A stretch of 64,000 nucleotides of DNA, taken from the IMG/VR virus record IMGVR_UViG_3300042518_000726, positions 1 through 64,000 of that record. One strand, 5' to 3'. The position numbers were made by a program, and so were the translations under genes. Origin of the DNA: a virus. Positions 5,760 to 59,492 of this stretch are shown piece by piece. The number at the start of each line of letters is the position of its first letter. The stretch's first letter is position 1. The notes below the pieces were generated by a model that was given only the letters and a program-made list of their open reading frames with translations, had not been told where the DNA came from and ran no database searches.

Positions 5760-8276
5760 ATGGCTAGATTAATACTTAAAAAATCAGCGGTTATTACCGA
5801 TGGTGCACCAAAACAACCTGCGCCAGGCGACCTTGAGTACGGTGAGCTTGCCCTTAACTATGCAGTTGGTACACTCTACTACAAAAAATCTGATAATACA
5901 ATTGGTGCTATTGGCGCAGGTGCTTCACCTGGCAACGGCACCCTGACACTCCAGGCTCAGGCGGGCCTAACTAACACTAGTGTTTCCATTGGTACAGGTA
6001 CAGGATTTAGTGCTAATACTGCAACTAATACAACCTATCAAGTTAATGTTGGTCCAGCACTTAGTGCACTAGCTGGCACCATGACAGGTGCAGGTAGTGG
6101 CTTTTTACGCAAGTCGGGTGCTGATACTTATGAGGTAGATACTAATACGTACGCTACTGCAAGTAGTTTAGCTAATTACTTGCCGCTTGCTGGTGGCACC
6201 ATGACTGGTGCTATTAACATGAGCGGGACTCAAACCCTTACACGTGCTGGTTTTGCTGGTATTGAGTACTACAATACTGCTGGTACTTGGGAAGTCTATA
6301 TTGGTACTGAAAATAACACCGGCAATGTACGGTATAATTCTAGACAGGGTACACATACTTGGTATGCAAATGGAACTTCCATAGGTTCTTTAGCTTCAAC
6401 AGGGCTTAATGTTGCCGGAACCTTAACTTTACAAGGTAATAGACTAGGTATTAAAAATACTGCTATTACCGCTGGCATAGACAGCGTAGCAGGATGGGCT
6501 TACGACAGCACATTTAGTGTTGCTAATCCAGTTGATATATTCTTTAAACCAGACGGTTTAATAATGTATCTAGCGTTTTCTAATTCAATTACCCAGTATA
6601 ATTTGTCAGTTGCATGGGATATCACCACAGCAGTAGCAGGCTCAACATTTTCAATGTCACTAATTGACGTTAGTACATTAGGATTGTTTATTAGTCCAGA
6701 TGGTACTAAGATGATAACCTCTGGTAACAGTGGAGTTGTTATTGCCAACGGTTCAGGTGTTGCAGGCGAAGATAGAGCTTACTATTTTACCTTAGGTACA
6801 CCTTGGGATATAACAACCGCTAGTTTAGTAAGTTCAATACGATTTGCCATAGGTGATGCAGGTGGTATTCCAGCAGCAATGACTGCACCACAGGCGGTAG
6901 ACTTTAAGAATGATGGTACAATAATGTACATCATAGATTCAACTACTGATGCTGTGCATCAGTTTGCGTTGAGTTCGGCATATAATGTTGCAACGGCAAC
7001 CTGGACTAAACAATTTAGTGTTAGTGGCCAAGAAAGCGGCCCAACTGGTCTGAGATTTAACACTGCTGGTACACGCATGTACGTATACGGTAGTACCGGA
7101 GACGACGTAAATGAATATAGATTGGGCACAGCGTGGGACATTGCCACTGCTGTATTTTATGATAAATTCTACACAGGTTGGTTTGAACCTACTCCAACCG
7201 GTATATACATTAACGAATCTGCTAACGTAGCATTCTTATGCGGATCTAGTGGTGATGTAGTATTAAAATTCCGCACAGATCGTCAGGCAGTAGAGATTGA
7301 CGCAGAAACTACTACCAGTAAAATTGAACTTGCTGGCAACACGAGAGTTACAAATAACTTTTACGTTAACGGACGTACAGTACTTGAAGGTCGAGTTGAC
7401 ACCCTTGGAGATCTTGTTATCGGGGGTGATATTACAGTTCTTGGTAATGATTTAGTTGTTGGTTCTGCTACGAGTAGTGCGACATTATTCTCTGGATTAA
7501 CGTCGGGTGCTTTAAGCATCGCTACCAGCGAAACAACTGGTGCAATTACTGTAGGCGGAACAGCAGCCACTGGTGTAATCACCGTCGGTCAGTCCACAGT
7601 TAATCAGACTTTAAACTTATCATCGGGTGCTACTACCGCAGTTTCGACTAAAGTTATTAATATTGGTACCGCCGGTCTTGCAGGTTCGACTAGTACAATT
7701 AACATCGGATCAACAGTTTCGGGAGCACTGGGTGTTACTACAATAGGTGGAACACAAACTATAATTAGTTCTACTACTTCTGCTGTTTCAACTACTACTG
7801 GTGCATTAGTAGTTGCCGGTGGAACGGGTATTGGTGGAAATTTACATGTTGCCGGAACCCTAACACACGCAGGCCTAGCTCCTAGTACCGGTACTGGTAT
7901 AGATCAAGTATATACTCATCAACAAAGCATCACACTAACTACTAGCTGGCAAGATACTGGAGTAAATGCTGCCGAACTTGCAACTGGTAGTTATATTGTT
8001 CAAGTAACTAACGTAAGTGACCATACAGTAGGTGGTACTCAATATCAAGAATACTATACTGGCGTAATGAGTTGGTTTGCTGGCAATACTAATAGTGAAG
8101 TAACTGATGAAATTGTCTTGCACCGAGCAGGGCACGCACCAAATAGTGGAACAATATTCCTAAGAGTTCAAAGAACTCCTGGTGAAAACGCAGACGATTT
8201 AAAGCTACAGGTAGCTGGAACAACTACGAATAGTGCGGCATACCAGTACACATTTAAGTTTCGCAGATTGATATAA
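5760..8276 (+). CDS. Tail fibre protein with a beta-propeller-like domain
   Basis: An 838-residue protein whose N-terminal PGDLEYGELALNY resembles the fibre N-terminus of the upstream gene. Residues about 235-515 contain at least five repeats of the form F-x-PDG-x-x-MY…WDITTA (for example ISPDGTKMIT, FKNDGTIMYI, FNTAGTRMYV), which look like blades of a beta-propeller. A Gly/Thr-rich repeat region follows (about 560-720) and a distal beta domain (about 740-838). A propeller embedded in a fibre suggests glycan or protein receptor binding; that is inference. Confidence 0.75.
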   Translation: MARLILKKSAVITDGAPKQPAPGDLEYGELALNYAVGTLYYKKSDNTIGAIGAGASPGNGTLTLQAQAGLTNTSVSIGTGTGFSANTATNTTYQVNVGPALSALAGTMTGAGSGFLRKSGADTYEVDTNTYATASSLANYLPLAGGTMTGAINMSGTQTLTRAGFAGIEYYNTAGTWEVYIGTENNTGNVRYNSRQGTHTWYANGTSIGSLASTGLNVAGTLTLQGNRLGIKNTAITAGIDSVAGWAYDSTFSVANPVDIFFKPDGLIMYLAFSNSITQYNLSVAWDITTAVAGSTFSMSLIDVSTLGLFISPDGTKMITSGNSGVVIANGSGVAGEDRAYYFTLGTPWDITTASLVSSIRFAIGDAGGIPAAMTAPQAVDFKNDGTIMYIIDSTTDAVHQFALSSAYNVATATWTKQFSVSGQESGPTGLRFNTAGTRMYVYGSTGDDVNEYRLGTAWDIATAVFYDKFYTGWFEPTPTGIYINESANVAFLCGSSGDVVLKFRTDRQAVEIDAETTTSKIELAGNTRVTNNFYVNGRTVLEGRVDTLGDLVIGGDITVLGNDLVVGSATSSATLFSGLTSGALSIATSETTGAITVGGTAATGVITVGQSTVNQTLNLSSGATTAVSTKVINIGTAGLAGSTSTINIGSTVSGALGVTTIGGTQTIISSTTSAVSTTTGALVVAGGTGIGGNLHVAGTLTHAGLAPSTGTGIDQVYTHQQSITLTTSWQDTGVNAAELATGSYIVQVTNVSDHTVGGTQYQEYYTGVMSWFAGNTNSEVTDEIVLHRAGHAPNSGTIFLRVQRTPGENADDLKLQVAGTTTNSAAYQYTFKFRRLI

Positions 8277-8300
8277 CCTCTGATAAATAGGGACGAGGAT

Positions 8301-11300
8301 ATGTTTAAAGTAAAAGATGGTATCAGAATAGGTGCCCAAGAATTTGTAGACGGCAGCAGAAATGTAACTGCAGGCACAGTCTCGGCCTCAGACGTTACCA
8401 TTAGTGGCGAGCTTCGTGGCCCAGCTACTATGTATATTGACCCTGCCGGTATCGGTGATAATACAGGTACGCTAGTAATTCGTGGTAATTTACAAGTAGA
8501 CGGTACAACTACTACAATTAACTCTACCACAGTAGCTATTGATGACCTAAACCTACAATTAGCTACGGATGCCCCTAATGCAGCTGCTGCAGATGGTGCA
8601 GGTATTACTATTGGTGGTGCAGGTGCAACCTTTACCTATGTGTCCAGTGGCGACAAGTGGCAGCTAAATAAATCCTTAGAAATTAATGGCAATCAGGTTT
8701 GGCATGCTGGCAACTTAACAAATCTTAACCAACTTACTAATGGTCCAGGCTATATTACCGGTTATACAGAAACAGATACACTCGCAACTGTAACTGCAAG
8801 AGGTGCAAGTACAAGTAATTCAGTTACACTGAGTGGAACGGGGAATCAGTTTGGTGGTCACTTCTATTTTCTTCCTTGGGATTCTGCTGGAAATCACTAT
8901 CCTCATTTTAACGACGGAGGTAATGCTTCAGGATCTAAAGTTAATTGGCGTCTATTTACCGGAGGCACCAATAGCATAACACACTATTGGGATACTGGAT
9001 ATACGTATTTTGCGAATAGAGTTGAGTCTGCGAGTGACATGCGCGCTACACTATACTATGATGCTACTAATACTTCTTATTATTTAGATCCAGCAGCAGG
9101 ATTTTATCTGTTTGCGAGTTCATCAAGTGCTGTTATAAATGGCACAGAATCTTCTTCTGGGCTTATTATTCAAAACAATTCCACTGGTGGTCCAAAACTT
9201 TCTCTTAAATCTACAGCAGCATCTGGAAAAGATCTATGGTTTATTTCCAATAATACCAGTAACACAGATGGAGCTGGCAGACTCCAGTTATGGAATAATA
9301 GCGACGGCTACACTTTTGCTACTTTTGGCACTACTGCAGGCGCTAATCATTTTATCTATGGTGCATATACACAAATGAGTGGTAGTGCGAGAGCACCAAT
9401 ATTCTATGATTCAGATAACACTGGTTATTATGTAGATCCAGCAAGTACGTCAAATCTTTCGGGTTTAACTGTTAGTAATGCTATTTCGGGTAACGTTACA
9501 GGATACTCTAAGTGGATTGACAGAGTCCCTGCATATCAATGGAGCAACTCAACCCTGCCATCTGGGTATAACTCCGGGGTGGAGACATCATTTGTTTCTT
9601 CTGCTGAAGGGTGGCCACAATACGGCGTTGTATTAAGTGTAATGGGACGTGTTCCTGTAGATCCGGGTGGAAATTTTCAATTATTCATGGGACATGGTGC
9701 AAGCTATGGAGGATTAGGGTTAAGAGTTAGATCAATCAATCAAACAAATAATCTTTGGACTTCTTGGAAAATTTTACTTGATGAAACTAACTACACTAAT
9801 TATGCAATGCCTATTGGTTCTTCAGCAACAAACTCTGTTGATATAAGAGCACCGATATTCTATGATTCTGCTGACACTGGTTATTATGTCGATCCGAATA
9901 ACACATCCCGTTTAGCTGAATTGAGAGTTGGCGGTGGACCTGGTGGTAGTACAGCGGGTAACTTATACATACAAGGAAATAATGATTGGAGATGGATTGC
10001 CGGACACGTGCCAAACTATGGTGTAGGAAATGGATTTGGCTTATATAGCGATTCTCTTGGTTACTATTTAATGTCTTTATCGACTTCAGGAAATTGGTAT
10101 TTTGGTGAAAACAATCACAATTCATCTCACAGAGTAAGTATCAACGGTACCGGATATGCATCTGGTGATTTTAGATCTCCTATCTTCTATGATTCAAACG
10201 ATACTGCATATTATACAGATCCTGCAAGTACATCTAGGTTAAATAGCATTCTTCCAAATGAAATTCAACTTTATGCAGGTAAAATACAACATGGATCTGG
10301 TTCTGGTGGAACTTCATTTGGTGGGGGCCATTATTCACAGGGTATGGATATAGCTAATGGCTATAGTAGTTGGTCATATCCATATAAAGACTATATCATT
10401 GGACACCATACTGGAATTAGAATAGGTGGTTATTATAATTACGGAGGAACACGATTCTATAATAATTCTCCGACAACTGATGCTGATATGAATGGTCATG
10501 GTGATGGTGGAGAAACACTATTATTCTCGACGGGAATGTGGGATAATAATGTTAGATCACACGTTACGCTGTATGCTCCATTTATATACGACCTTGATGA
10601 TACTAATTATTATCTAGATCCAAACAGTGGCTCTAGACTACTTCACATTTTTGCTGGAAACGTAAGTTCCAGCAATGATGGTAGTTGGAATGCTAGAATG
10701 AATCTTGTTGGTTCTGCTCATGCGAGATTAGATGTAGTTAGCAATAGTGATGGCATTATCACTACGATGTATTCACACACTGGTCAAGGCGTGGGCAAAA
10801 TTGGAACGATGTCTAATCATCCGCTAACGTTAATGGCACAAGGCGCTAATGACGGAGGATACGTTTACAACGGATCAATTCGTTCACCAATTTTCTATGA
10901 TGCTAATGATACTAATTATTATTTAGATCCAGCTAGCACATCGAGATTAAACACTTCGCGAATTGGGAACATTAATGTAGGTTCTGGAACTTATTTAAAT
11001 ACGATAACACCAATTGGTGATGGTAATATTAATTTAAGTGCACCAAGTGGGGCATTTTATTTTGACACTTGGCCAAGGATGCCAGGATTATATGATATTA
11101 ATGATACTGCATACTATGTAGATCCAAATTCAAATTCTAAACTCGTAAATCTTGGATTAGGTGGTGCCACACCAGACGTAAGATTAAGTATTAGTGGTGA
11201 TGCACATGTATCAGGCTTCCTTTACATGGCGGGGACTGCAGGATCAGCTGGTAGCTGGGGATCGAGAGATTATACATCAGGAAGCAGTAGATACTTTAAC

Positions 11301-33461: not shown

Positions 33462-34106
33462 TTAAGCTAAATCTTTAACAGCTTCACGTTCGCTATCTGT
33501 TTGATTCTCTTGTTCCTCTTCTTGACCTTTTTGCAGTTTCTCGATTAAGGCTTTTACCTCGTCGCTGGTGGGGCGAGGATACTTTTCATCAATAGATACT
33601 GCGGTATCAGCTAGCTTACGCTCGTTATCACCAAGGCTGCGCTGTTTACAACGAAGAACTTGCAGGGTGTATTCAACATTAAAAGCTAGTGGGCCAGTTT
33701 TATTACGCTTAAACACTACATCCCAACCAGTATCGTAGTCAGTAGGGTCGCCCAGATCTTCTGCAGCAGTTAGGATTTGCTCAAACAGTTTCTTTTTAAG
33801 ATTTAGTACTTTAACTTTTCCATCCTTAGGATCAATACAGTTAACTGCATAGCTCCAGGAGCACTTCAAGTCAGGATACGAATCTTGTACCCAATCTTTT
33901 TCTAGATTATCAAATTTTTCTTTTTCACGACTAAAAGCTAGACATTCAATAGGAATATCTTTGTTATTAGTACCTTTTACCCAGTATACATAGCGTGGAA
34001 GAACCCCACCAATAAGCCTAACAGAGTTTTCTCCGTCTTTGTACTCGTAAGATTCAACTTTAGATGTTTGTGCTTTGCCTTTGGTTTGTTTAAATGAGAG
34101 TGCCAT
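33462..34106 (-). CDS. Single-stranded-DNA-binding protein, T4 gp32-like
   Basis: A 214-residue protein. The LPRYVYWVKGTNNKDIPIECLAFSR segment and the following KDWV/Cys-rich core are typical of gp32-family OB-fold SSBs. The C-terminus is acidic and Gln-rich (KGQEEEQENQ), the usual partner-binding tail. AGGA lies 8 nt before the ATG. A promoter 0.4 kb upstream and a terminator directly after make it part of a short, probably abundant transcript. Confidence 0.85.
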   Translation of the reverse strand: MALSFKQTKGKAQTSKVESYEYKDGENSVRLIGGVLPRYVYWVKGTNNKDIPIECLAFSREKEKFDNLEKDWVQDSYPDLKCSWSYAVNCIDPKDGKVKVLNLKKKLFEQILTAAEDLGDPTDYDTGWDVVFKRNKTGPLAFNVEYTLQVLRCKQRSLGDNERKLADTAVSIDEKYPRPTSDEVKALIEKLQKGQEEEQENQTDSEREAVKDLA

Positions 34107-53213: not shown

Positions 53214-53314
53214 TGGTAGAAGGGGTGGGAATCGAACCCACATTAACTGCCTTATCTGGACAGTGCTTACGAGTTTATAAGGCTCGCCCTAAGGCCAATA
53301 TTAGCAACCCTTCC
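53214..53314 (-). tRNA. Atypical tRNA with long variable arm, apparent anticodon TAT
   Basis: Acceptor GGAAGGG/CCCTTCT, T arm GTGGG-TTCGATT-CCCAC, discriminator A and CCA are clear. The D arm is irregular, the anticodon arm reads CGAGC-CTTATAA-ACTCG with a C-A pair closing the loop, and the variable region is about 28 nt with its own stem ACTGTCC/GGCAGT. An Ile anticodon with a class II variable arm is not normal, so identity is uncertain. Confidence 0.6.
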
Positions 53315-57095: not shown

Positions 57096-57413
57096 TTAAT
57101 AATAATATACGTGTGGTTTACGTCCTACTGCGGGCGGATCTACTAGCTCTAGGTCTGTGGTCTTGAGCACTGCGTGCTCCCATACACGGCCACGACGACG
57201 CTGTGGACGATTCATAGTAATACGAGTCCACCAGCTAGGTGTTGTGCTATACCAGCGAAAATGACAGTAGTTTCTACGCTTTTTAGTTTTCTTGCCCGCA
57301 ACTTGTATGTAACGAAAACCAAAGCTACTAGTATCTACACGAATAGCATCGTATAAGTAGTGATCTTCTGGATACGCTACAGTGTGCGGTTTATCTTTTA
57401 GAGTACGACTCAT
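57096..57413 (-). CDS. Basic conserved phage protein
   Basis: 105 residues from the ATG at 57413 (GGAG upstream, just past the ncRNA terminator). MSRTLKDKPHTV is the opening of a widespread small phage family; the rest is Arg/Lys/Trp-rich (KKTKKRRNYCHFRWY, NRPQRRRGR). Probably nucleic-acid-binding. Ends at the 5' end of tRNA-Ala. Confidence 0.6.
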   Translation of the reverse strand: MSRTLKDKPHTVAYPEDHYLYDAIRVDTSSFGFRYIQVAGKKTKKRRNYCHFRWYSTTPSWWTRITMNRPQRRRGRVWEHAVLKTTDLELVDPPAVGRKPHVYYY

Positions 57414-57423
57414 TATTATCTCC

Positions 57424-57465
57424 AAAAAACCATAGTTCAAATCACGAGTATGAGTTGAACTATGG
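57424..57465 (-). terminator. Strong terminator of the tRNA-linked structured RNA
   Basis: A perfect 11-bp stem CCATAGTTCAA/TTGAACTATGG (57430-57465) is followed leftward by six T residues and then the ribosome-binding site of the next gene. It defines the 3' end of the noncoding transcript. Confidence 0.93.
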
Positions 57466-57922
57466 CCCCACTCCCTAAAGTGGCTTCATAGTGTCTTGTT
57501 ACTATTGGGCGACGGCCCGCAGGTCTAGAATGTCCAGTTACGTAGTCCACCATCACTAGTAACTTTTATCGCCCTGTTGCGCGGTATAGTCTAGGGATAC
57601 GACTATGTAAGCGTGGCGGGAACTATTATATGCAGGTGCTCATTCCTGCTTGCTCTAGACTTCACTGTTCACGTTGTACAGTCGAATATCTTTACGGGGT
57701 ACGACCCCAGCCTAGTCACCAGCCTAGAGTTTATAGGTTCAGCGTGAGCAGCGCAATTACGGATGTTGACTAGAAATAAGTTTTCCCAGTTCAGGCTTTA
57801 GAGTGCCTTATCGGGCTAGTCAACAACCATATTGAAACACACTGTGGTCTATACATACTTTCCTTGAGAGGTATGTGGTGTACCAGCCCTGATCTTTTTA
57901 GGGATTTTAATGTGCTTCAATA
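57466..57922 (-). ncRNA. Large structured noncoding RNA, 3' module (novel or GOLLD/ROOL-like)
   Basis: About 457 nt without any plausible coding frame between tRNA-Tyr and a terminator. Self-complementary segments fill it: CCATATTGAA/TTCAATATGG (57827-57836 / 57916-57925) extended by CACA/TGTG, enclosing ACATAC/GTATGT and CCCT/AGGG arms; GTTGACTAG/CTAGTCAAC (57765 / 57816) with inner ATAAG/CTTAT; GGGGT/ACCCC (57696-57708); TTCACTGT/ACAGTcGAA (57661-57686); GCAGG/CCTGC (57632-57649); ATAGTC/GACTAT (57586-57606); AGTTAC-TAGT/ACTA-GTAACT (57536-57564) within GGGCGA/TCGCCC (57507 / 57569); CCACT/AGTGG. GTCTAGA (57523) and TCTAGAC (57654) may pair at long range. Size, phage origin and tRNA neighbours recall GOLLD and ROOL; identity not established. 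Confidence 0.75.
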
Positions 57923-58009
57923 TGGTGGATGCGGATGGATTCGAACCACCAGCGTTTCTAGTGTCACGAGTTTACAGCCCGCTGCCGTCAACCATTTGGC
58001 TACGCATCC
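57923..58009 (-). tRNA. tRNA-Tyr (GTA) embedded in the structured RNA unit
   Basis: Class II: acceptor GGATGCG/CGCATCC, anticodon arm GCGGG-CTGTAAA-CTCGT, variable stem, T loop TTCGAAT, discriminator A, CCA (57925-57923). The CCA is also the first three bases of the helix that opens the 3' RNA module, so tRNA maturation and that helix compete. Confidence 0.93.
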
Positions 58010-58192
58010 ATAGTAAAGTATTTTGCTTACTGCCTGCTCGCGCATGAGTTAATCTTCCTGCCATATGATCCCGCTAAGGATCGGCTACGATTAACTTCAG
58101 CCCGCTTTAGGGATATACCGGCCGGGTACCCTTATTTCTCTGGGCTGCAATGTCCTGTTTATTTCACCTAGGACGAACAAAATACTTAACTA
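58010..58192 (-). ncRNA. Structured inter-tRNA RNA module
   Basis: 183 nt between tRNA-Leu and tRNA-Tyr, noncoding. A 10-bp closing helix AAGTATTTTG/CAAAATACTT (58016-58025 / 58178-58187) encloses three arms: GTTAATC/GATTAAC (58048 / 58089) stacked on GCC/GGC and GATCC/GGATC; CAGCCC/GGGCTG (58098 / 58142) with inner AGGG/CCCT and TACC/GGTA; and GTCCT/AGGAC (58152-58174). A compact multi-arm junction, not seen between the other tRNAs of this genome. Confidence 0.75.
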
Positions 58193-58275
58193 TGGTGCCC
58201 TGGGACGGACTCGAACCGTCACGCTCGCGCACTGGCTTCTAAGACCAGCGTGTCTACCAATTCCACCACCTGGGC
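58193..58275 (-). tRNA. tRNA-Leu (TAG)
   Basis: Class II: acceptor GCCCAGG/CCAGGGC-type pairing, anticodon arm CTGGT-CTTAGAA-GCCAG, variable stem, T arm GACGG/CCGTC, discriminator A, encoded CCA. First tRNA of the noncoding transcription unit. Confidence 0.94.
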
Positions 58276-58362
58276 ATGGTAACGATCTAAGGTTTTAATC
58301 GTTGTGGCTCATGCACCCCAAGCTGACGCTTGTTGAGCTTTTGCGGTTTGTGCCGCCCCATA
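58276..58362 (-). other. 5' leader of the tRNA/structured-RNA transcript
   Basis: About 87 nt between the expected transcription start and tRNA-Leu, with hairpins GCGG/CCGC (58343-58356), AAGC/GCTT or AGCT/AGCT (58320-58338) and AACGAT/ATCGTT (58281-58303). No coding frame. Could be trimmed 5' flank or part of the structured RNA. Confidence 0.55.
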
Positions 58363-58368
58363 TATAAT

Positions 58369-58397
58369 ATTATACAGTATTAGTTAGCGTGAATCAA
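58369..58397 (-). promoter_or_regulatory. Promoter of the structured-RNA/tRNA unit (proximal)
   Basis: -35 TTGATT (58397-58392), 17-bp spacer, -10 TATAAT (58374-58369) then ATTATA. Expected start near 58362, giving a transcript of about 940 nt to the terminator at 57424. Confidence 0.8.
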
Positions 58398-58459
58398 GAC
58401 AAGAAATTAAACGGTAATAGTTGTATTGCTATTTCTTTCTTAATTCACACTATACACAT

Positions 58460-58488
58460 ATTATATCACGTTTACTGGTCTAGTGCAA
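58460..58488 (-). promoter_or_regulatory. Promoter of the structured-RNA/tRNA unit (distal)
   Basis: -35 TTGCAC (58488-58483), 17-bp spacer, -10 TATAAT (58465-58460) then ATGTG. Second promoter in tandem, just after the UvdE stop. Confidence 0.78.
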
Positions 58489-58490
58489 GT

Positions 58491-59492
58491 CTAAATTTTC
58501 ATTTGCTTGACAAAAGCAGCCTGAGCAAGGTTTTTCTCTTTGGACTCTAGCATAATGTCGCTATACTCTAGAAAACTACCGGCCCACTCGTTACAAGCTA
58601 GGTTCCAGTAGTAGTCACTATGTGCACGCAATTTAGCTCGCGTGAATCCTTGTGTTAACAATTCCTGCAGGTTGGGTCGGGCATTGCGATCATGTTCGAC
58701 TACAACATCTTCACGACTCAAGCTGTAGTGGATTACTGGCCTAACACCTCGCCAAGATTCCCATAACCGCTGTACACGAGGATCGGTTGGCTCAATGTAT
58801 TCCCCACTCATAATCCAGTGATGGTGAATGTCTAGGACTAGTGCACAGTGATCTACTAGCTCTAGACTAGCATTAATACCCCAGCTAAACTCAGCGTTCT
58901 CAATGGTAAGCACATTGCGAGCTTCACGACTAAGACGCTTAAGTGCTTGTTTGATACCTTCTGGACCTTGTTTGCCACCAATATGTACGTTGCACTTAAA
59001 GTCTTGAAATTCACGACCATAACCCATGTAGCGAATAAGGTCTACATGATACTCAAACTCTTGAATAGAGTTTTCAACAACATTTGGGTTTTCACTAGCT
59101 AGTACACAAAACTGACCGGGATGAAAACTAAGTCGAATATCGTGTTGTCTAGCTAGGTTGCCAATCATATCAAATCTAGCCTCTAGCTCGCGAACTACGT
59201 CTGGCTCCCAGTACCACCACGACCAGTCGTCGTGGGTATATGCTGGAAGCAAGTCGCTGCTTAGGCGGAACATACGCTCTTGTGCTGGCTTTTTAGCTAC
59301 CCACTCTAGTTGCCTGATTATGGCGTTAGTATTCTTGTCCAGAATACCCCATAGCTTGGCTACAGCTACATCTCGGGTCTGATTATTTAGCCAAGTAATT
59401 GTGGTAGTGCCGGTGTTTAGGCCTGGAGCTGCTTTGTCATGGCTTTCTTGAATCTTGCAAGCAAAACCAACTCTGGGGTGTTGTTTGAACAT
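58491..59492 (-). CDS. UV-damage endonuclease (UvdE/UvsE family)
   Basis: 333 residues with the TIM-barrel UVDE motifs: FRLSSDLLPAYTHDDW, RLSFHPGQFCVLAS, VHIGGKQGPEG, VLTIENAEFSWG and VLDIHHHW, providing the metal-binding His/Glu residues. These enzymes nick 5' of UV photoproducts. Full length. The start overlaps the stop of the upstream small gene by 1 nt. Confidence 0.93.
   Translation of the reverse strand: MFKQHPRVGFACKIQESHDKAAPGLNTGTTTITWLNNQTRDVAVAKLWGILDKNTNAIIRQLEWVAKKPAQERMFRLSSDLLPAYTHDDWSWWYWEPDVVRELEARFDMIGNLARQHDIRLSFHPGQFCVLASENPNVVENSIQEFEYHVDLIRYMGYGREFQDFKCNVHIGGKQGPEGIKQALKRLSREARNVLTIENAEFSWGINASLELVDHCALVLDIHHHWIMSGEYIEPTDPRVQRLWESWRGVRPVIHYSLSREDVVVEHDRNARPNLQELLTQGFTRAKLRAHSDYYWNLACNEWAGSFLEYSDIMLESKEKNLAQAAFVKQMKI

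Follow-up and report, generated by a model that had tools for sequence, protein, structure and literature searches.

Two covarying RNA families in a putative polycistronic tRNA array of a phage

We analysed a 64,000-nucleotide stretch of viral DNA (the window hereafter; positions 1 to 64,000 of the 66,038-base IMG/VR virus record IMGVR_UViG_3300042518_000726) and found that a noncoding region on its minus strand carries two structured elements, H (57632-57762) and C (57461-57624), which on the comparison of homologues are very probably new conserved RNA families absent from Rfam. Searches of an open-access library turned up no earlier description of either. The first-pass annotation of this DNA had taken positions 57424-58397 for a noncoding unit of large structured RNA interleaved with two tRNAs. 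This was largely right: positions 58363-57424 of the minus strand are noncoding, structured and conserved. Its suggestion of a new class of phage RNA was supported, as no Rfam family beyond the tRNAs reached its cut-off and the homologues covary strongly, the very point on which the annotation had let its claim depend. In reading order the strand holds a leader, tRNA-Leu, a 188-nucleotide hairpin, tRNA-Tyr, a 99-nucleotide hairpin, a small module M1, H, C and a terminal hairpin with a U-run. We propose that these are the parts of a polycistronic array, that H and C are new RNA families, and that H acts in RNA maintenance; to this whole chain we give a probability of roughly 45%.

The H model, R1, matched the window copy with 108.9 bits at 57653-57762. 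Many members begin with a closing helix P0, which is followed by the P1 hairpin, the strand UGAACCUAUAA, P2, the strand GGUGACUAGG, P3, UAAnGRUA, P4, the returning strand P2′ and often a P5 hairpin. Pattern scans of the conserved strands gave 39 stretches, 44 when relaxed and 70 in the last scan, and R1 gave 61 matches (57 distinct) in 64 sources, nearly all of which had been picked for holding the motif. Over these 61 matches, 92.8% of the cells were paired compared with 58.2% after shuffling, and covariation was 0.837 compared with 0.205, falling to at most 0.133 when the pairing partners were slid. A U-G cell of L123 in the covariation alignment is an alignment slip, the actual letters being CCCA/UGGG, and the L045 match to the model (E-value 0.77) was taken as chance and not counted as H, while its row remained in another covariation alignment (A3). 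One H alignment held 11 of 28 sequences plus L082, those most consistently aligned by MAFFT. E-values of both the H and the C model are rough, and the seed sequences match by construction.

An alignment fitted to the model favours the structure that was drawn, and tests of P2, of the pseudoknot and of the loops were added that do not rely on the fit, with identical strands or loops collapsed before the P2 and loop swaps. P2 strands scored 7.0 against their own downstream stretch and 4.1 against those of other members (standard deviation 0.21; 26 distinct). The pseudoknot pattern left three positions on each side free as YYY and RRR, which allows 64 combinations, and all 58 distinct sequences held compensated pairs only, namely 35 CCUA/UAGG, 21 CCCA/UGGG and 2 CUCA/UGAG. 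The kissing loops of P3 and P4 were also complementary, with a score of 2.96 compared with 2.10 after swapping in 26 sequences taken without a fitted alignment, and 3.43 compared with 2.41 in 49 distinct pairs taken from the fitted alignment (none of 5000 swaps was as good in either case).

Folding of 977 nucleotides covering the whole region gave a z-score of -6.2, and none of 20 shuffles was equal. However, the reality of H and C rests on comparison and not on stability, because their own z-scores were only -0.5 and -0.3 (150 nucleotides folded for C). The excess stability belongs to the hairpins around them (terminal -7.4, 99-nucleotide -6.2, 188-nucleotide -4.5, M1 -4.4). The first-pass annotation had stressed perfect complementary pairs packed end to end; the region does fold well, but those pairs mark the spacers and not the conserved RNAs, since it is the hairpins that carry the excess.

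H elements range from 33% to 68% G+C while the letters of their junction are nearly fixed, which fits a partner that varies little from host to host, for example the machinery of translation or of tRNA processing. The constancy of UGAACC and GGUGAC is in part a product of the search itself, as the pattern scans demand fixed letters; the H of Sinorhizobium phage Phosso, which was found by the model, has UGUCGACUAGG as its second strand. The overall layout resembles that of a tRNA, with a closing helix in many members, a D-arm-like P1, a long P2 arm that holds a junction with the kissing loops and the pseudoknot and, again in many members, a T-arm-like P5. It is not a tRNA cloverleaf, as the place of the anticodon arm is taken by a branched arm with P3 and P4. 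By eye, an acceptor-like helix and a T-loop surround H in L095 and L069, with a CCA end in L095. The closing helix of array members covaries, being UAUGGUG/CACCAUA in L032 and L079 and UAUGGCA/UGCCAUA in L075. A coding role for the AUG after GGUGACUAGG was considered and rejected, as this AUG is missing from several members and in L034 a stop follows soon after.

H is a single-copy element in 51 of the 52 records with a match. R1 found exactly one H in each of the 30 records chosen for the motif; in 27 further records it found a single copy in 21, two copies in one (G053) and none in five, these being the record of L132, whose locus itself scored 25.8 bits, and four named phages. Records with H or C are mostly fragments, and among them are several near-copies. 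The contigs that carry H run from about 98 kb, in one whose ends match, to more than 600 kb, and H lies in three settings: within tRNA arrays, before a DNA-polymerase-like gene, and, in jumbo-phage contigs of up to 607,744 bases, flanked by tail-sheath-like and tail-tube genes. Neighbouring genes were named by eye, with the tube supported by a search and the genes of named phages by their annotation. The search with the tail-tube protein tied H loci to named phages, and the DNA-polymerase-like query found no named phage. Of five named jumbo phages searched whole with the H model, one, the isolated phage Phosso, carries H, at 288279-288387 (2780-2888 of L153) in an unannotated gap of 509 bases. 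Frames beside H that were named by eye are HNH-like in L100 and L091, GIY-YIG-like in L084 and TnpB-like in L069.

No Rfam family overlapped H in twelve loci at E-values up to 1, and a sub-threshold sroE match just upstream of H in L126 (25.2 bits, cut-off 51, E-value 0.16) was taken as chance. When 4227 Rfam families were run against 57300-58500 of the window, no cut-off was reached beyond the tRNAs, and at E-values up to 10 there were four sub-threshold matches to unrelated families. A blastn search of the region against 50,697 records of named phages matched 632, none over more than 80% of the query, and the best 20 of the 632 align at the tRNAs. Searched in the same way, C (L019, L055) and H (L092, L087, L091, L070) gave only short matches, which covered no more than 21% of the query and had E-values of at least 0.5.

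Element C consists of a hairpin with a UCCCUA loop, a P8 hairpin with a pseudoknot, a GGGCYGUCGCCC hairpin, AAGAC and a hairpin with UUUAGGGA in its loop. Its model, R2, scored 128.5 bits at 57455-57569, the window copy being part of the seed. The pattern of the GGGCYGUCGCCC hairpin occurs in 23 viral stretches, and R2 found one copy of C in 22 of 44 records. In a MAFFT alignment of 18 sequences, from which the structure was also drawn, 95.2% of the cells were paired compared with 75.9% after shuffling, and covariation was 0.505 compared with 0.145. This alignment (A5) excludes the truncated L018, L020 and L060 together with L068 and identical fragments, and six of its 18 rows are the window or near relatives. 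The P8 loop pairs with a downstream strand in 18 of 18 sequences, and one of the three pairs occurs as GC, UA, AU and CG. By eye, the first loop and that of UUUAGGGA are complementary as well (UCCCUA/UAGGGA).

Some letters of C resemble the S and R motifs of group I introns, but a group I or permuted group I intron was rejected, as the presumed P7 was inconsistent across sequences and its strand pairs with the P8 loop instead; a literature search on permuted introns gave no fit either. The group I intron model (RF00028) found nothing in 57300-58500, in six C-bearing loci or at H in five loci, whereas it found introns elsewhere in L078, which shows that the search works. Two further candidates were taken as chance: an AAC_AAD_leader match over C in L054 (25.3 bits, cut-off 56, E-value 0.47) and two matches of the C pattern in bacterial genomes, which the C model did not confirm. 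In L055, C and a hairpin are followed, at positions 8174-8355, by a tRNA-like RNA with an insert in place of the anticodon arm, with 114 bases absent from the model alignment. L047, L050, L053 and L054 have the like in similar places, and this RNA is perhaps another effector RNA.

We read H and C, from their arrangement in sequence, as two RNAs often made together. Twelve of the 32 H-bearing records that were searched with the C model have C and 20 lack a match, while 10 C records have no known H. Where both occur, H precedes C in the window, L003, L006, L007, L008, L064 and L097, and C precedes H in L032, L068, L075, L079 and L088 (the C match of L088 is weak, E-value 0.0025); the record of L082 also holds both.

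Relatives of the region, fetched through neighbouring proteins and one DNA pattern, were compared segment by segment at six loci from five records. L003 is 99% identical where alignable, and relatives further off reach 85-90%. For the upstream UvsE-like gene identity is 78-80% in the three loci that hold it whole, and for the downstream gene of 105 amino acids it is 67-90% in four. Identity is 92-99% for the leader element before tRNA-Leu (58276-58363, minus strand, z-score -2.4; four loci), 84.7-99.2% for H and 89.6-91.5% for C (five loci each), and 92-98% for M1, a small stem-loop at 57764-57825 (minus strand; five loci). C is not always better conserved than coding DNA. tRNA-Tyr and its hairpin are missing from L003 and L064, L007 carries an additional hairpin cassette 3′ of tRNA-Leu, and in L008 a different hairpin replaces the 99-nucleotide one. 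Unit content thus varies among relatives, and the region is therefore likely to be an array of separate units rather than one RNA.

The units are set apart by hairpins of a CCATA...TATGG family, which recur across tRNA arrays with arms mostly of 14-22 base pairs. We counted 51 distinct spacer hairpins in 23 loci, and shuffling each of five stretches 60 times produced none. In the window, all on the minus strand, the family includes the 188-nucleotide hairpin (58008-58195) with arms of 20 base pairs, and a terminal hairpin at 57424-57465, which ends in T6 and is probably the terminator in this phage; this last hairpin is longer in L006-L008, and in L064 no T-run follows it. The 99-nucleotide spacer (57827-57925) has arms of 17 base pairs, and none of 200 shuffles equalled its stability. 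At non-Watson-Crick positions of spacer arms, read on the tRNA strand, there were 66 G-U, 33 A-C and 47 other combinations, although related hairpins are not independent; the excess of G-U over A-C points to RNA rather than DNA as the molecule expected to fold. The 188-nucleotide hairpin (58195-58008) also has a conserved inner core; it is 97.8-99.5% identical in five loci, above the flanking gene, and the core pattern occurs in 9 viral stretches. This core may be a further functional RNA.

Under the reading we favour, the region would be transcribed as a polycistronic precursor of two tRNAs and at least two structured noncoding RNAs, H and C. Through the spacer hairpins the CCA end of one unit can come to lie beside the 5′ GG of the next, and host RNase P together with hairpin-cutting RNases would release the units. 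H would then act in trans during infection, in a tRNA-like manner, to protect, trim or repair tRNAs or other RNAs, with C as a second trans-acting RNA often made beside it. In some jumbo phages H might, more weakly, partner a Ro-type protein that the phage itself encodes, in the manner of bacterial Y RNAs. Taken by itself, a tRNA-like role of H in RNA maintenance is a tentative proposal and somewhat doubtful. It is rather unlikely that H is an unrecognised class of trans-acting tRNA mimics forming the RNA half of a phage particle for RNA quality control or repair, joined there by Ro in jumbo phages and by C plus host proteins in array phages.

The possible Ro partner comes from the neighbourhood of H. 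A subset of jumbo phages carries TROVE (Ro) proteins, and cellular TROVE proteins work with a tRNA-like partner in RNA repair, as described in PMC7824862. Ten of the 39 records searched have TROVE: H is present in seven of them (six metagenomic records and Phosso) and C in two (G034 and G039, with low scores above the cut-off), and the tenth is Agrobacterium phage Atu_ph07. In six of the seven records with both, including Phosso, the start of TROVE lies on the strand of H, 872-2628 bases further downstream, while in G046 it lies 163 kb from H. The Phosso gene downstream of H is annotated as a Ro-like RNA binding protein (XYS97555.1). A search for RtcB found it in 1 of 25 records and showed no link.

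Several observations weigh against a tRNA-like H that works with Ro. TROVE was not found in 24 of the 31 H-bearing records searched, many of them fragments, and the record of the window is among the 24; the six Ro neighbours may represent one ancestral arrangement in the sheath-tube region and not six events. No Y RNA family matched at H in the window or at 12 other H loci. YrlA (RF02553) and H share a tRNA-like layout, but YrlA has the order T-arm, anticodon arm and D-arm, whereas in H the D-arm comes first. A pairing of the P1 and P5 loops that would mimic the tRNA elbow was strong in only 6 of 24 members, and 41 of 5000 swaps were equal (the near-copies L006, L007 and L097 were dropped, and L034 was left out for want of P5). 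P5 or CCA is missing from several members. H is not always more conserved than nearby coding DNA, with 90.1% identity to L014 compared with 89.6% for the 105-amino-acid gene. In the array of L045, downstream of C, positions 990-865 (minus strand) hold a YrlA-type match that is likely a Y RNA (38.6 bits, E-value 4.9e-7, gathering score 69), and that record shows no TROVE.

We then weighed other explanations of the same data. It is unlikely that H forms a true class of Y RNAs whose main job is to be bound by Ro and to steer exonuclease action. In its favour are the position of Ro downstream of H and the tRNA-like domain that YrlA and other bacterial Y RNAs carry, according to PMC7790460. In G046 and G039, in which Ro is not next to H, weak YrlA-like matches of 30.7 and 25.1 bits, which miss the cut-off, precede Ro by 1.1-1.7 kb. 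Against it, most H-bearing records lack TROVE, Atu_ph07 has Ro and no H was found there, RF02553 reached its gathering score nowhere in 29 records, and sub-threshold YrlA-like matches (20-39 bits) also occur in 7 of 14 control genomes. By analogy with theta ribozymes, H and perhaps C might instead be self-cleaving ribozymes that trim neighbouring tRNAs. Theta ribozymes are thought to do so. The near-invariant junction letters, the pseudoknot, the kissing loops and the place of H beside tRNAs would suit such an activity, but H is also found with tail genes on either side or ahead of a DNA-polymerase-like gene, its flanks vary with no common cut site seen, and no HDV-like (hepatitis delta virus-like) or other ribozyme family matched in 57300-58500. 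The conserved letters and layout of theta and HDV-like ribozymes are also unlike those of H. The ribozyme is thus improbable, even though theta ribozymes have been tied to tRNA-based recoding in gut phages, as PMC10879173 reports. Even less probable is a riboswitch or attenuator controlling the mRNA of the downstream gene in cis: in one group H does have a DNA-polymerase-like gene downstream of it and in another tail-tube genes, and in L100 the HNH-like frame begins directly after H, but the downstream genes vary by group, and within arrays H is often followed by a tRNA, a hairpin or C.

Two further alternatives concern the region as a whole. The first-pass annotation favoured large structured RNA interleaved with tRNAs, as a divergent GOLLD or ROOL or as a new class. 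In a single giant RNA of the GOLLD or ROOL type, H, C and the hairpins would fold together, perhaps as a cage, with the tRNAs in linkers. Both GOLLD, whose function is unknown, and ROOL, a phage or prophage RNA, often lie near tRNA islands, and GOLLD combines a conserved 3′ region with, at times, tRNAs in its unit or linker, according to PMC12286853. The size range of the region, its tRNA-island setting and its folding as a whole agree with such an RNA. However, the GOLLD model (RF02032) found nothing in the record of the window (G000) at E-values up to 10, while the same search found a true GOLLD in Phosso at 33533-34001 (186.6 bits, cut-off 150), where H lies at a separate locus, and H differs from GOLLD in its layout and its size of about 110-130 nucleotides. 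A kinship with ROOL found no support either: its model (RF03087) matched none of 12 records nor, in the Rfam scan, 57300-58500, a weak test given that no control genome matched. The dispensable tRNA-Tyr with its hairpin, the extra cassette of L007, and the reversed order or separate occurrence of H and C argue against co-folding, and we consider a single giant RNA quite improbable. There is also a slight chance, by analogy with integrons, that the CCATA...TATGG hairpins are DNA sites at which tRNA units are swapped as recombination cassettes. The repeated hairpin sites and the gain and loss of units at TATGG among close relatives agree with this, but the preference for G-U over A-C in their arms, with the same caution about related hairpins, fits pairing in RNA.

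Structured phage RNAs near tRNAs are a known kind, and it is the families and their fold that are new to Rfam. A covarying single-copy RNA common to tRNA-array phages and jumbo phages would suggest a shared task that a picture based on proteins has missed. With an unannotated H in the isolated phage Phosso, the question can be tested at once. If H is indeed the RNA half of such a phage particle, tRNA arrays would mix tRNAs with effector RNAs, all set free by one shared hairpin-cutting system. The Ro link, if real, would connect the tRNA arrays of phages with Ro particles and with defence against tRNA damage.

The other features of the region agree in part with what had been noted. ARAGORN confirmed both tRNAs on the minus strand, tRNA-Leu (UAG) at 58193-58275, to which Rfam gave 54.8 bits, and tRNA-Tyr (GUA) at 57923-58009. 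The absence of a coding frame also held: among frames of at least 40 amino acids, the longest lying wholly within 57424-58397 has 49, and frames of 53 and 114 amino acids merely overlap the ends. The first-pass annotation had proposed promoters at 58369 and 58460 and a strong terminator at 57424. A promoter-like site, TTGATT-17-TATAAT, does lie at 58369-58397 (minus strand) with 10 of 12 letters matching, weak evidence alone, but the promoter scan did not list the site at 58460, and its four sites compare with 2.3 in shuffles, near chance level. For the terminator, a 36-nucleotide hairpin followed by T6 is present at 57465-57424, but the scan, whose rules require more G-C pairs, did not list one on the minus strand at 57430-57465; its single terminator was on the plus strand, near chance level at 1.1 in shuffles.

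Elsewhere in the phage tRNA island, positions 49677-49267 (minus strand) encode a permuted transfer-messenger RNA (tmRNA) of beta-proteobacterial type with the tag ANDETFALAA, hinting at a beta-proteobacterial host. This tmRNA is a tRNA-like RNA of the same island and is separate from H, and the tmRNA model matched neither H nor C in 57300-58500. At 53217-53314 (minus strand) Rfam called a tRNA that ARAGORN did not list, and positions 489-1613 hold a long run of near-identical short repeats in one frame on the minus strand.

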